From Thermochromatium tepidum ATCC 43061 (GTDB lineage: Bacteria; Pseudomonadota; Gammaproteobacteria; Chromatiales; Chromatiaceae), in contig NZ_CP039268.1 in NCBI RefSeq assembly GCF_009664085.1, positions 419,501 to 483,500 on the forward strand: 64,000 bases of DNA, read 5' to 3'. The notes under the pieces are model-generated. The model made no database searches. It was not told where the DNA came from and saw only the letters and a program-made list of their open reading frames with translations. Both the position numbers and the translations under genes were made by a program. Shown piece by piece: positions 3,263 through 53,124 of the stretch (the first letter of the stretch is position 1; each line of letters opens with the position of its first letter).

Positions 3263-6085
<2,823 letters not shown>

Positions 6086-24861: not shown

Positions 24862-25115
24862 GTAAACAACCCTCGACTGAAGTCGAAGGCTTTATTGTGA
24901 GACGCAGCAAACATGGTTGACCACATCCCCAACATTGGGCGTGTTTACAGCCGCCCTTGGTAGCGGGGCTCCGCTGCCAATCCGGGCCAGGTTTCGACTG
25001 GCGTTGCAGTCGGCGTGCGCCCGGAGACCACACTGTATTATACACCACATGGTGCGCTTCGCGCACCCGCCATTCCTCCCGCGACTCAAGTCGCGGGTTT
25101 CCTTGCGGAGGGTCT
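24862..25115 (-). repeat. 254-bp IS605-derived miniature element, copy A
   Basis: This is one of three copies of equal length (others at 33460-33713 and 51045-51298). Read on the minus strand from TTCAT, it has a hairpin CCCGCGACT/AGTCGCGGG, a hairpin GGTGCGC/GCGCACC, a TATAAT-like box, the last ~50 codons of a tnpB (CGLRAHADCNASRNLARIG, to 24892), a 12+12-base palindrome at 24957-24980, and a terminal hairpin ending in GTTTAC. Two substitutions in this copy's palindrome give G-T pairs rather than mismatches. Downstream of its ATGAA (25116-25120) only a nine-codon frame follows, so here no gene start is served. Confidence 0.8.
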
Positions 25116-25312
25116 ATGAATGGCGCGGGGTCGGCGTGGTGACTGGCTTTGGTGATCCACTCCGAACGCTGCGTCCGCTTGGCGCGCACCACCTCATCCA
25201 GCGGCGGCAAGTCGATGATCAGCACTTCCTTGGGGCTCAGGCGCGACCCTAAACGCATGACACGAGCCGGGTCAGACGGGGAGAACCACACCGGCGGTGA
25301 CGGCCTGGACAT
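25116..25312 (-). pseudogene. Short frame cut by repeat copy A; possibly CopG-like
   Basis: About 65 codons from ATG 25310-25312 run into the repeat. The segment EVLIIDLPPLDEVVRAKRTQ then RSEWITKASHH faintly resembles ribbon-helix-helix (CopG) proteins, which often show a short strand, a helix and RSEWI. The similarity is weak and no partner toxin is visible. It may be only a chance frame in decayed DNA. Confidence 0.25.
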
Positions 25313-33459: not shown

Positions 33460-33713
33460 GTAAACAACCCTCGACTGAAGTCGAAGGCTTTATTGTGAGA
33501 CGCAGCAAACATGGTTGACCACATCCCCAACATTGGGCGTGTTTACAGCCGCCCTTGGCAGCGGGGCCCCGCTGCCAATCCGGGCCAGGTTTCGACTGGC
33601 GTTGCAGTCGGCGTGCGCCCGGAGACCACACTGTCTTATACACCACATGGCGCACTTCGTGCACCCGCCATTCCTCCCGCGACTCAAGTCGCGGGAGGAA
33701 TGGCGGAGGGTCT
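33460..33713 (-). repeat. 254-bp IS605-derived miniature element, copy B
   Basis: It has the same layout as copies A and C, with the tnpB remnant reading to 33490 on the minus strand and the 12+12-base palindrome at 33555-33578. Its GGTGCAC/GTGCGCC hairpin differs from GGTGCGC/GCGCACC in the other copies by a paired change (G to A with C to T), so pairing is kept. Next to the gene-side end it has a 20-bp perfect stem (33665-33684 with 33687-33706), longer than in A or C, where eight bases differ. The element ends GGAGGGTCT directly before the ppx start codon. Confidence 0.85.
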
Positions 33714-33716
33714 ATG
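33705..33716 (+). promoter_or_regulatory. Ribosome-binding site of ppx supplied by repeat copy B
   Basis: GGAGGG (33705-33710), three bases, ATG (33714). The Shine-Dalgarno is in the repeat and identical in all three copies; the ATGAA is the flank. The spacing is short but workable, and the 20-bp hairpin ends inside it, which could modulate access. Confidence 0.6.
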
Positions 33717-35267
33717 AACATGCAGGAACGAACAACAGTCAAAGAGACTGTTCAAGCCCTTGTCAAGTCGACCGAATCTGCCTCGACCCGCACGGTGGCG
33801 GCTGTGGATCTCGGTTCCAACAGTTTTCATATGGTTGTCGCCCGTATCACCGACGGCCATGTTCAGATCACCGATCGTCTCAAAGAAATGGTGCGGCTCG
33901 GCGAGGGTCTGACCGAGGAGCGCCTGCTCAAACCCGAGGTCGCCGAACGTGCGCTCGCCTGTCTCGAACGCTTTGGTCAGCGTCTGCGTGGCTTTGCGCC
34001 TGAGGATGTGCGCGCGGTCGGCACCAACACACTGCGCCAGCTTGCTCCGAACGACGACTTCATCCAGCGCGCCGAGGCCGCGCTCGGTTATGGGATCGAC
34101 GTCATCGCTGGACGGGAGGAGGCACGTCTGATCTATCTGGGTGTGGCCTATGGGTTGGCCGCCGGCGGCGAACGGCGGCTGGTGGTCGATATCGGCGGCG
34201 GCAGTACCGAGATGATCGTCGGGCGCGCCTTCTTACCCAGTCTGCGCGAGAGCCTCCATATGGGCTGTGTGAGCATGACCCAGCGTTATTTCGCCGATGG
34301 GCGGATCACGGCCAAGGCCATGCAGCGCGCCGAGCTTGCAGGTGCCCTCGAGGTCCGACCGGTACGCGAGCTCTTCCGTCGCGCCCGCTGGGAACGGGCC
34401 GTAGGGAGCTCCGGGACCATCCGCGCCATCGCGTCTGTGGTCCAGGCCGAGGGCTGGTGTGAGGACGGCATCTCGGCCGAGTCGCTCGCGCGTCTGCGCA
34501 CGGCCCTGATCGATGCCGGCAAGGTTTCGGCCTTGCCCTTCAAGGCGCTGAGCGAGGAACGCCGTCCGGTCTTCGCCGGAGGTGTGGCCGTGCTGTGCTC
34601 AGTGTTCAACTCGCTCGGCATCGCCCAGATGCAGGTCTCGGACTATGCCCTGCGTGAGGGTCTGCTCTATGAGATGATGGGGCGCCACCAGCCGGGCGAC
34701 GTGCGCGAGCGGACCATTGCCACACTCTGTCGTCAGTTCCACGTCGATCAGGAACATGCACGCAGGGTCGAGGCGACGGCACTGAGTCTCTACCATCAGT
34801 TGGTCAAGCCCTGGTCGCTCGACAATCTGGATTATCCGCTGATGCTTGCCTGGGCGGCCCGTCTGCACGAGATCGGCGTCATGGTCGCCCACAGCCAGTA
34901 TCAGAAGCATGGGGCCTATCTCGTGCGCAACGCCGATCTGCCTGGATTCACACGTCAGGAGCAGGCGCTGCTCGCGACCCTGGTACTCGGACATCGACGC
35001 AAGTTTCCGATTCAAGAGTTTGCCGCGCTGCCTCAGGGTGTGCAGTCGGCGGCGCGGCGGCTGTGTGTCATCCTGCGTCTGGCAGTGCTGCTGCACCGTG
35101 GGCGCTCGGTCGACAGCAAGCCGAATCCGCTCATTCAGGTCGAGGGTGAGACCCTAACCCTGAGCTTCCCCACCGGCTGGCTCGTCAGCCATCCGCTGAC
35201 CCAGTTGGAATTGGAACAGGAGGCCGAACGCCTGGCGGCCTCCGGGATGGTGTTGCGCTTTGGTTGA
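33714..35267 (+). CDS. ppx: Exopolyphosphatase (Ppx/GppA family)
   Basis: Ppx releases phosphate from polyphosphate; family members may also cleave pppGpp. The 517 residues show the actin-like ATPase fold motifs AAVDLGSNSFHMVVA, DIGGGSTEMIVG and GSSGTIRAIASV, and a C-terminal HD-like helical domain. ATG 33714 (MNMQERTT) lies directly at the end of repeat copy B, which provides its Shine-Dalgarno; an internal ATG at 33720 is possible. It converges with lpd. Confidence 0.94.
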   Translation: MNMQERTTVKETVQALVKSTESASTRTVAAVDLGSNSFHMVVARITDGHVQITDRLKEMVRLGEGLTEERLLKPEVAERALACLERFGQRLRGFAPEDVRAVGTNTLRQLAPNDDFIQRAEAALGYGIDVIAGREEARLIYLGVAYGLAAGGERRLVVDIGGGSTEMIVGRAFLPSLRESLHMGCVSMTQRYFADGRITAKAMQRAELAGALEVRPVRELFRRARWERAVGSSGTIRAIASVVQAEGWCEDGISAESLARLRTALIDAGKVSALPFKALSEERRPVFAGGVAVLCSVFNSLGIAQMQVSDYALREGLLYEMMGRHQPGDVRERTIATLCRQFHVDQEHARRVEATALSLYHQLVKPWSLDNLDYPLMLAWAARLHEIGVMVAHSQYQKHGAYLVRNADLPGFTRQEQALLATLVLGHRRKFPIQEFAALPQGVQSAARRLCVILRLAVLLHRGRSVDSKPNPLIQVEGETLTLSFPTGWLVSHPLTQLELEQEAERLAASGMVLRFG

Positions 35268-50120: not shown

Positions 50121-51044
50121 TCAAGGCTGGCGGGCCGTGCCCTCGCCATTGGCCGGGGGGTCAAAGAGATCGGCGAGTCCCTCCAGCTCGTCTCGGGCGC
50201 GCGCCTCCTCGATCTCTTCCGGACTCAGTGGAGGCTCGGATCCCTTATCGGGCGTGGCCGGCGCCGGCTCCAGCTCGCCGACCGCCTCTTTTGCCAGCGC
50301 CTCCAGCATGGCGTCGATGTCGTTCGGATCAAGCGCGTCCTCGATCGATGCGGTGGGCTTGATCTCATCATCCGGCGGACCCGGACGGGGTGGTTCTTTC
50401 AGTTCAGTGTCTACGGCCGGCTGGACATCGAAATCGTCTGCGTCTATGTCGAGCGCTTTGACCTCCATGTCCTCGCCCGACCTCTCATCCGGCGTCTGGG
50501 CGCGGCGATCGGGTTCGGGGGGCGAGTCATCGGTCTGCTGCTCGATCTTCTTGAAGGCCGCCATGTACTCCTGCATGAGCTGTTCCAGCGTCTCCTTGGT
50601 GTGCTCCAGTTCGACCGCGAGCTGGGCCTTTTCGGTCTCCAGGTGCGAGACCTCGCTCGCGCTGATCATGCCTACAGGTGTGATCTCAGCCCAGGGTTTG
50701 ACCACCTTGGACAGTTCCGCCGGAATCTCCTTGAGTCTGGCCCCGTCGCGATTGAGATAGAGGTTCAGCATCATGTTGTAGAAGGCGCGCTCGCGCGCCA
50801 GATATTCCTCCACCTTGGCGGCCAGTTCCTCGCCCTCCAGGCGATAGGTGGTCTCAAACAGCCGGGTGAGGGCCTCCCGGTGCGAGACCTCCCTGGCCTC
50901 GAGATGCTCCATCACCGCCCCGGCATGCGCCGCGTCGGCGCGATCCTGGTGGCGTTGCCATCTCAACATCCAGAACAGGATGCCCCAGGCAAGCAGGGCG
51001 AACTCGGCGGCCAGGATCAGGGCGGCTAGTTGCACCGTGTTCAT
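50121..51044 (-). CDS. Membrane-anchored coiled-coil protein, function unknown
   Basis: The 307 residues begin with one membrane helix (about 5-27), followed by a long helical part with heptads (residues ~125-170, SHLETEKAQLAVELEHTKET), then a Pro/Asp/Glu-rich disordered tail with DPNDIDAMLEALAKEA, which resembles the short NDIDxLLxx motifs of switch or signalling partners. It is the last gene of a row after the response regulator, kinase and VWA protein, separated from the VWA gene only by repeat copy C, which provides its GGAGGG and abuts its ATG. I do not recognise a family. Confidence 0.7.
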   Translation of the reverse strand: MNTVQLAALILAAEFALLAWGILFWMLRWQRHQDRADAAHAGAVMEHLEAREVSHREALTRLFETTYRLEGEELAAKVEEYLARERAFYNMMLNLYLNRDGARLKEIPAELSKVVKPWAEITPVGMISASEVSHLETEKAQLAVELEHTKETLEQLMQEYMAAFKKIEQQTDDSPPEPDRRAQTPDERSGEDMEVKALDIDADDFDVQPAVDTELKEPPRPGPPDDEIKPTASIEDALDPNDIDAMLEALAKEAVGELEPAPATPDKGSEPPLSPEEIEEARARDELEGLADLFDPPANGEGTARQP

Positions 51045-51053
51045 AGACCCTCC
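51042..51053 (-). promoter_or_regulatory. Ribosome-binding site supplied by repeat copy C
   Basis: On the minus strand GGAGGG (51053-51048), TCT, then ATG (51044-51042) of the coiled-coil gene, the same arrangement as at ppx. Confidence 0.6.
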
Positions 51054-51298
51054 GCAAGGAAACCAGCGACTTGAGTCGCGGGAGGAATGGCGGGTGCGCG
51101 AAGCGCACCATGTGGTGTATAATACAGTGTGGTCTCCGGGCGCACGCCGACTGTAACGCCAGTCGAAACCTTGCCCGGATTGGCAGCGGGGCCCCGCTGC
51201 CAAGGGCGGCTGTAAACACGCCCAATGTTGGGGATGTGGTCAACCATGTTTGCTGCGTCTCACAATAAAGCCTTCGACTTCAGTCGAGGGTTGTTTAC
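51045..51298 (+). repeat. 254-bp IS605-derived miniature element, copy C
   Basis: This copy is opposite in orientation to A and B. The tnpB remnant reads on the plus strand to 51268, with the 12+12-base palindrome at 51180-51203 and the hairpin GGTGCGC/GCGCACC near 51094. It lies exactly between the VWA gene and the coiled-coil gene. Its terminal GTAAAC gives the VWA gene its TAA stop; its other end gives the next gene its Shine-Dalgarno. Removing the 254 bases rebuilds GCATGAAC, a four-base ATGA stop/start overlap with the same VWA C-terminus. Confidence 0.85.
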
Positions 51299-53124
51299 GC
51301 GCGCGTCCTCCCCGCGCCCTTCGTCTTGGAGGCCCCGGCACCAGTGCGGTCGCGGGGCGACCGGGCGCGCGTCATCAGCCACCAGGTCAGGGCGAGCAGG
51401 GCACCGATCCATACATTGCCACCGAGGACATAGATGAAGAGCCAGCCCCAGGAGATGGACCCCTCCGGGCCCGGGGCAGTGGGCTGCGGTGGAGGCGCGA
51501 AATCGAAGTTCAGGACACCGGGTTCGGGCTTGACCTCGATGGGCTCGCCGGTCAGGCCAAGCCCCATGAAGTGGCTGGTGACCTGATATTCGCCGGGCTG
51601 CTGAATCGGGATCTTGACGGTCAGTGGGAAGCGTTTGCCCTTGGTGATCTCGACGACCTCGGTCCAGCCCTCGGGTCCGCGGGCGAGCAGATAGCCAGAT
51701 AGGCTGCTCGGATCGACCAGATCGGGCTCGGCCCTGAGCTGCAACAGCATGGCCGCTTGCGGGTCGGCCTCGCTCGGTTGTTTGCGCTCATAGTTGATCC
51801 CCAGTGGCGCGCCCTTGATCTTCAGGTGTCGGCTGAGCTGGCGCTGGAAGCTGCCGCCGTCGATGACGAAATCTAGACGATAGAACCCGGGCGTCAGCCG
51901 CTGGGTCTCGAGGAGGGTCGAAAAACGTGCATTGGCGGCATCGAGCACCATGATCCGTTCGTCCGTCGCCAGGGTCTGATCCCCCGGGGTGGGTGGGGCG
52001 AGACCCGCTTCGGTGGCAGGAATGGCCCCCGAGGCCGGCTGCGGCAGGGGCGTTTCGGGCGCCGAGGTGACGATGACCTTGGCGCTGAGCACCCCAACCA
52101 CCTCGGGCCGGGTGACCTGCTGATTGTGATCGGTGAGCCAGCTTTCGAGTTTGGGTGACTCGCCGAGCCCGACTGCATTCGGGACAGGGGCGACCTCGAT
52201 GCCGAGATCGGTCAGGATCACGACCCGGTTGTCCGGATCCTCGACGCCGCGGATCCGCCACTGACCGGGTTTGGGGTTGGAGATCGTCACCAAGTCATAG
52301 CCGGCCTCGCTGCGCCAGACCACCCCAGGCGCAGGCCGATCGGCGCGGATACGCTCGCCGTCGGGTGTCGTCAACTGGCTTTGACCGCCCTCGGGGCGAA
52401 AGGCGAGCAGCGTGAATTCCCGGACCTGGTCGTCGATCTGAAAGCGATTGCCCTGGATCGGCACCGTGGTCGGCGGGGCGCTCTGTTCGAGCACGCGCAA
52501 GAAGACACGCTGTAGCAGGGCAGCCTCCTGGACGATCTCCATCCAGCCTCCGGTCTGGGTCGCGAGCAGCCGCATGAGCGGCTCATCGATCTGATCGGAG
52601 AGACCGATGGGGTGGACCTTGACACCCATGGACCTGAGCGACTCGATCTGCTCGGTGAGGATACGCTCGCGCGAGGCGGCACTGTCTGCTGGATCCTTGG
52701 AGACATCGACCAGTCCGTCGGTCAGGAGGATCAGATGGCGCTCGCCCTCGGGCGGGGCCTTGCTCCAGTCCTGGGTTGCTGTCCGGATGGCGCCCTCGAT
52801 GTCGGTGAAGAGTCCGCGCGAATGGATGCGCGTTAGGCGCCCGGCGAGCTGCTTCTTCCAAGCCGCATCGACCTGGGCTGGCGCCACCAGAACCTCGGTC
52901 TGCTCGGCGAACAGCCAGACGCCGCAGATGGAGCCTGGAGGGATGAGCTCGTTGACGATCTGCAAGGCCGGCACGCGCAGATTCCGCGGATCGGTCTGAC
53001 GCATGCTGCCTGAGACATCGATGACTAACCGGACATCGGGTGGCGCCGCCAGCGCGATCTGGACCGCAATCGACCACAGCAGTGCGAGTGCGGCCAGGAA
53101 TCGCCGTTGGTTCAAGGGAGCCAC
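51295..53124 (-). CDS. Von Willebrand factor A domain protein, exported and membrane-anchored
   Basis: The 609 residues comprise a signal peptide (residues ~8-27), a VWA domain with a MIDAS motif DVSGSM (Asp36) and LILLTDGLVD, a middle part of beta-sandwich type, and a C-terminal membrane helix (GWLFIYVLGGNVWIGALLAL) with a short basic cytoplasmic tail. This gives a periplasmic metal-dependent adhesion or sensing domain tied to the inner membrane. GTG 53124 overlaps the end of the histidine kinase gene by 13 bases; TTG 53115 is an alternative. The role is unknown, but coupling to a two-component pair suggests envelope signalling. Confidence 0.82.
   Translation of the reverse strand: MAPLNQRRFLAALALLWSIAVQIALAAPPDVRLVIDVSGSMRQTDPRNLRVPALQIVNELIPPGSICGVWLFAEQTEVLVAPAQVDAAWKKQLAGRLTRIHSRGLFTDIEGAIRTATQDWSKAPPEGERHLILLTDGLVDVSKDPADSAASRERILTEQIESLRSMGVKVHPIGLSDQIDEPLMRLLATQTGGWMEIVQEAALLQRVFLRVLEQSAPPTTVPIQGNRFQIDDQVREFTLLAFRPEGGQSQLTTPDGERIRADRPAPGVVWRSEAGYDLVTISNPKPGQWRIRGVEDPDNRVVILTDLGIEVAPVPNAVGLGESPKLESWLTDHNQQVTRPEVVGVLSAKVIVTSAPETPLPQPASGAIPATEAGLAPPTPGDQTLATDERIMVLDAANARFSTLLETQRLTPGFYRLDFVIDGGSFQRQLSRHLKIKGAPLGINYERKQPSEADPQAAMLLQLRAEPDLVDPSSLSGYLLARGPEGWTEVVEITKGKRFPLTVKIPIQQPGEYQVTSHFMGLGLTGEPIEVKPEPGVLNFDFAPPPQPTAPGPEGSISWGWLFIYVLGGNVWIGALLALTWWLMTRARSPRDRTGAGASKTKGAGRTRA

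Follow-up and report, generated by a model that had tools for sequence, protein, structure and literature searches.

The 254-nt repeat between the genes for a VWA-domain protein and a coiled-coil/TM protein in Thermochromatium tepidum ATCC 43061 is a miniature IS200/IS605 transposon that is probably mobilised in trans, repairs gene boundaries to the base on insertion, and whose genomic copies have probably passed a purifying filter. The copy, here called copy C, lies in a window of 64,000 nt (the whole stretch of DNA analysed), to which the coordinates of Table 1 refer. This explanation is built on direct observations of the element's identity, its target, empty sites, base-exact repair, depletion of intragenic copies and recurrence across species.

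The genome (2.96 Mb, one contig) contains the miniature in 36 copies, 254 or 260 nt long and 92–100% identical, together with five full-length tnpA–tnpB elements of 1,679 nt that have the same ends, a repeat far beyond chance. All five encode a Y1 HUH transposase, TnpA (Pfam PF01797, E = 2.3e-39), and the parent element also encodes a TnpB of the IS605 group (PF07282, E = 2.9e-24, plus PF01385). By blastn, the miniatures consist of positions 1–82/87 of the full copy joined to positions 1505/1507–1679. They are coding-free, retain both ends and are internal-deletion derivatives of IS605, that is, PATEs. The pentanucleotide TTCAT precedes 38 of the 41 complete copies, the other three lying after ATCAT, GTCAT and GTCAT, and there is no target duplication. 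As is the hallmark of IS200/IS605 elements, all 41 copies lack terminal inverted repeats and abut a fixed target with their left end; subterminal hairpins are present at both ends (CCCGCGACTTGAGTCGCGGG on the left, CCTTCGACTTCAGTCGAGG on the right).

Two other copies lie in the window, one of which (copy B) immediately precedes an ATGAAC that is a candidate start for a Ppx/GppA phosphatase. The left end of copy B carries an extended palindrome (CCATTCCTCCCGCGACTTGAGTCGCGGGAGGAATGG) that differs from all other copies and looks as though one arm had been copied onto the other. The genome also holds a second multi-copy TnpB element (G000:C1:428003, 820217 and 300157; L035, L037 and L041) of about 1.4 kb, with an open frame of 420 aa and the first bases CCGTTCCATCAGAC.

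Table 1. Copies of the miniature element in the window, and the features of copy C and its flanking genes
Feature	Coordinates	Strand	Details
Copy A, intergenic	24862..25115	-	Target TTCAT at 25116-25120, minus strand (L011)
Copy B	33460..33713	-	Target TTCAT at 33714-33718, minus strand (L026)
Coiled-coil/TM protein, 307 aa	50121..51044	-	First residues MNTVQLAALILAAEF; start position as in relatives (MSTLQLAALILAGEF)
Insertion target TTCAT of copy C (putative TnpB TAM)	51040..51044	+	Pentanucleotide preceding 38/41 copies
Miniature element, copy C	51045..51298	+	254 nt; non-autonomous IS200/IS605 (PATE/MITE)
Left end of copy C	51045..51126	+	Full IS element positions 1-82; blastn, 98% identity
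GGAGG Shine-Dalgarno motif (CCTCC on +)	51049..51053	-	From sequence; spacer GTCT (4 nt), then ATG
Left-end hairpin of copy C	51063..51082	+	CCAGCGACTTGAGTCGCGGG; one A for C mismatch in copy C
Right end of copy C	51126..51298	+	Last 173 nt of full element, 97% identity
Right-end hairpin of copy C	51271..51289	+	CCTTCGACTTCAGTCGAGG
TAA stop supplied by the element	51295..51297	-	Replaces the TGA of the ATGA overlap; minus-strand right end GTAAAC
VWA-domain protein	51295..53124	-	C-terminus ...RTRA*; stop within the element's first bases

Copy C is flanked by TTCAT and GCGCGCGTCC. On the minus strand the target reads ATGAA, and its ATG (51044–51042) is the start codon of the coiled-coil gene. 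At the other border the VWA reading frame ends ...AGG ACG CGC GC|G TAA, where G and TAA (51297–51295) are element bases, and the far end of the element, GCGGAGGGTCT, adjoins ATGAACACG, with which the coiled-coil coding sequence begins. The original prediction, that the GTAA of the element supplies the VWA stop codon and that an element end with a Shine-Dalgarno motif stands directly before the coiled-coil ATG, was therefore correct to the base on both counts. It had also held that excision of the 254 bases would restore an ATGA overlap; when copy C was deleted by script, the flanks joined as ...CGCGC|ATGAAC, with the VWA protein still ending ...RTRA and its TGA overlapping the ATG. The same geometry is general: the left end abuts the ATG, with GGAGGGTCT before it, and the GTAA of the right end is in phase with the TGA of ATGAA. 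The left end of copy C contains the tnpA upstream region with a TATAAT box, and the right end comprises the 3' end of tnpB and a putative omegaRNA (reRNA) scaffold, whose would-be guide is the flank from 51299.

An empty site in close relatives had been proposed as a check, and the expected ATGA overlap is present in four genomes of the same genus (L069, L070, L071 and L074). The junction there reads AAGAGGA(C/A)GCGCGC|ATGAGC and the VWA protein ends R(T/K)RA*. All four have ATGAGC, not ATGAAC, and their unoccupied state fits this absence of an ATGAA target. In the empty site a native GGAGG already lies 8 nt before the ATG (ggggaggacgcgcgc|ATG); insertion has therefore exchanged that Shine-Dalgarno too, and not the overlap alone. 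The idea that translational coupling gave way to the element's own Shine-Dalgarno thus stands as regards the lost overlap and the two preserved reading frames, and is to be amended in that a native GGAGG was exchanged too. Alternatively, the downstream gene might be read as a fusion from a TTG inside the element (ORF 50121–51203, 360 aa), which would make the element's Shine-Dalgarno irrelevant. The frame is indeed open upstream through the element to 51203, but the start in relatives is the conserved ATG after the ATGA overlap and the coding score is negative upstream of that ATG, which leaves such a fusion very improbable. Elsewhere, the empty rnfE site in G005 is also an ATGA overlap, with an upstream protein ending EILQ*, and the obg start lies at an identical ATGAA in 7/7 relatives, with the element at that site in 0/7.

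The insertion sites were then compared with background. All 41 copies were removed by script and genes were called at the empty sites, and the same caller was run on 607 background TTCAT sites drawn from a 464-kb sample of the genome. Insertions fell at the exact predicted start codon in 12/41 cases (17 under a lenient rule, 18 by eye), these being automatic calls by a home-made caller in which the starts assigned at L031, L032 and L026 could be internal. The corresponding background figure was 34/607 (56 lenient), so that the start class is enriched among insertions (12 versus 34, p = 7e-6). TGA stops within aTGAa were occupied in 8/41 insertions against 11/607 background sites (p = 6e-6), while gene-interrupting positions were depleted, 5/41 against 480/607 (p = 3e-18), and intergenic positions accounted for 14 insertions and 67 background sites. 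Both ATG starts and aTGAa stops are met base-exactly because TTCAT is the complement of ATGAA. At the stop-site copies, the sole change to the last codon is in all cases NNA to NNG, which is synonymous here, and TAA follows. Among the start-site genes, those for Obg, a TadA-like deaminase, Rnf-Nqr, a type IV pilin, ferredoxin and cyclophilin can be identified by their N-termini, and others encode a carbonic anhydrase and a radical-SAM protein.

With the lenient gene call, 22/41 copies occupy a start or stop codon. The pattern that the original prediction described at the VWA/coiled-coil junction, an ATGA overlap struck with both frames kept, is in this sense a general one. An active preference for ATGAA start sites was not borne out: among non-interrupting sites, boundary and intergenic positions stood at 22:14 in the insertions and 60:67 in the TTCAT background (p = 0.19), and with no excess over intergenic sites we rejected active targeting of start codons. 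Stop sites alone were slightly over-represented relative to intergenic sites (p = 0.03). The simple reading is that insertion is random at TTCAT and that gene-breaking copies are then removed, start and stop sites being as safe as intergenic DNA. On this reading the boundary location is a matter of tolerance and purifying selection, not of targeting.

The 173-nt right end that the miniatures retain has a consensus fold of 50 pairs, 17 of them with compensatory changes, in an alignment of 14 sequences from several organisms whose 5' third is uncertain for two of the 14. A conserved structured RNA thus lies at the right end beside tnpB, as is characteristic of a TnpB omegaRNA, and occupies the omegaRNA/reRNA position of TnpB systems. 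In such systems, as known for ISDra2 TnpB, a structured right-end RNA overlaps the 3' end of tnpB, takes its guide from the flank and works with a TAM equal to the insertion target. The sequence here is alike in the right-end structure, the tnpB 3' overlap, the putative flank guide and the correspondence of the putative TAM and the target; it differs in that 36 copies without coding capacity carry it, which would depend on TnpB in trans, and its activity is putative. In every miniature the upstream region of tnpA (TATAAT box) runs straight into the omegaRNA region of tnpB. Such a unit could serve by itself as a guide-RNA cassette directed at the empty site of the copy concerned, given TnpB in trans.

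HEARO/IscB elements, which integrate near ATGA, are another kind of mobile RNA element with comparable sites, and two HEARO-like matches occur elsewhere in the genome. These lie below the Rfam cut-off (G000:C1:84762-84994 (+) and 1181927-1182118 (-); L001 and L002) and are unrelated to the element. No Rfam family matched the element at gathering score, HEARO (RF02033) gave no match to it even at a relaxed threshold, and the parent element encodes TnpA and TnpB, not IscB. The RNA family and the nuclease are thus different, and we rejected a HEARO/IscB identity as extremely unlikely.

Among IS200/IS605 elements, IS608 and ISDra2 resemble the present one in their Y1 TnpA, TnpB, subterminal hairpins, absence of inverted repeats and duplications, and insertion 3' of a fixed pentanucleotide, which is TTGAT for ISDra2 (PMC2806898). 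They differ in that the TTCAT target used here, read on the opposite strand, gives a start codon and that the ends here rebuild start and stop contexts; literature searches (TTCAT with TnpB; start/stop-codon insertion) returned no description of ends that do so. The PATEs known from Haloquadratum (PMC3119063) and Halanaerobium (PMC7290912) are also short and coding-free, with IS605 ends, near-terminal palindromes and no duplication; they often arise by core deletion, and some keep the 3' end of tnpB. Term searches of these two papers found no report of a location at start or stop codons or of an end-borne Shine-Dalgarno. The present element differs from those PATEs in retaining about 173 nt of the omegaRNA region.

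Left ends of the same type were found, as independent cases, at start codons in other genomes: in the same genus (L107, L108 and L109), in Ectothiorhodospira (L168 and L174), in the MAGs L171 and L178 and in the viral contig L183. The Proteobacteria MAG L171 holds a 46-nt relative that consists of ends only (about 4366–4412 of the reverse complement), flanked by a 398-codon ORF ending GREIGVIQ* on one side and a Tdh-like MKALVKKE on the other, with both frames preserved. From these sequences, the site is probably a kbl–tdh ATGA overlap, and those of L183 and L168 also look like overlaps. A viral scan with AAGGAAACCCGCGACT gave mostly chance matches, with the hairpin only in L183, L185 and L218, and searches with two further hairpin patterns yielded nothing new. 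Some members have lost the stop, with a right end of GTTTGC or GTTTGA (L170 and L108). Within the plasmid collection, the nearest relative of tnpA (79% identical) is carried by a Methylomarinovum tepidoasis plasmid (L166), where an IS4-family transposase gene stands between the left end and tnpA.

Whether the repairing ends are an adaptation, 'built to be harmless' as the original prediction put it, or a by-product divides our judgement. The ends of bacterial TTCAT-family elements may have been selected for an outward Shine-Dalgarno and an in-phase stop, since copies that spare the host persist; we give this somewhat less than an even chance. Of the bacterial left ends, 16/16 carry GAGG or GGAG at 4–6 nt from the target and within 13 nt of it, the neighbouring bases varying around this conserved motif (AGACCCTCC, AAATCCTCC, AGAGTCTCC, AGTTCCCTC and AAACACCTC); of the haloarchaeal left ends that have a CAT target and share the hairpin, 0/9 carry it. 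Shine-Dalgarno motifs are not used in the 5'-UTRs of Haloferax volcanii (PMC3986360), which we count in favour of selected ends, as we do the modest excess of stop sites noted above. Since target and hairpin persist in the haloarchaeal relatives although CCTCC is absent, recognition across the wider family does not require CCTCC, and the contrast favours a translational role. It also makes the motif less likely to be a structural partner of the GGGAGG that lies 3' of the left hairpin, since haloarchaeal members retain GGGAGGAA but lack CCTCC. However, the 16 bacterial ends are related and phylogenetically clustered, not 16 independent events, those haloarchaeal members whose neighbours are annotated are tnpB-only, one member from a phage collection (L254) lacks the motif, and the in-phase stop is missing from L170 and L108. 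Predicted mRNA folds place part of the GGAGG in base pairs (unpaired probability 0.01–0.47), probably with an upstream UUCCUCC, which weighs against adaptation and, like the short spacer (4 nt), against the mechanism proposed below for copy C. Terminator-like hairpins are predicted inside the element on the minus strand, and the insert may have polar effects on transcription.

That the ends are a pure by-product is about as probable as not: the Shine-Dalgarno-like motif and the GTAA end would be set by TnpA/TnpB recognition (cleavage sites, guide sequences and the omegaRNA end), and what is seen would be the survivors of purifying selection. CCTCC near the left end is also found in IS200/IS605 families with non-start targets (TTAT|GAATCCTCC and TTGAC|ATCCTCC), where another role, in the tnpA leader or in TnpA binding, can explain it; target choice is fixed by transposition chemistry, not translation; boundary use is no higher than intergenic use; and the TTTAC of the right end is similar to the TTCAT on the left, as expected for paired cleavage sites. 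Against it stand the haloarchaeal relatives that have target and hairpin but no CCTCC. On the selected-ends reading, a bacterial IS200/IS605 lineage would have evolved ends that re-create expression signals, making insertion at essential-gene starts and ATGA overlaps silent, which we put forward tentatively, a little short of even probability. In the same joint and equally tentative reading, the haloarchaeal relatives, whose ribosomes do not need a Shine-Dalgarno, would have lost it or never gained it.

For copy C itself, we propose that the TnpA of the five full-length elements mobilises the miniature in trans and would insert it 3' of TTCAT through its normal site recognition, the complementarity of TTCAT and ATGAA placing it base-exactly at ATG starts and aTGAa stops. 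Read outward, the left end would then provide GGAGG-GTCT-ATG and the right end GTAA in the phase of the lost TGA, so that the frames of both genes are kept: the upstream protein would still end with its last residue and a stop codon, and the downstream gene would keep its start codon and acquire a new ribosome-binding site. The element's Shine-Dalgarno would drive downstream translation, and purifying selection would act as the filter that removes intragenic copies and spares copies at gene boundaries to the same extent as intergenic ones.

A mobile element can thus inhabit gene boundaries without breaking genes, as at the obg start codon and the rnf and probable kbl–tdh junctions, and translational coupling is replaceable by a mobile Shine-Dalgarno. 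For annotation this is a warning, since what is taken for a 5' untranslated region or an intergenic spacer in such genomes may be the end of a transposon. With this family, the idea that host translation shapes transposon ends becomes open to test.
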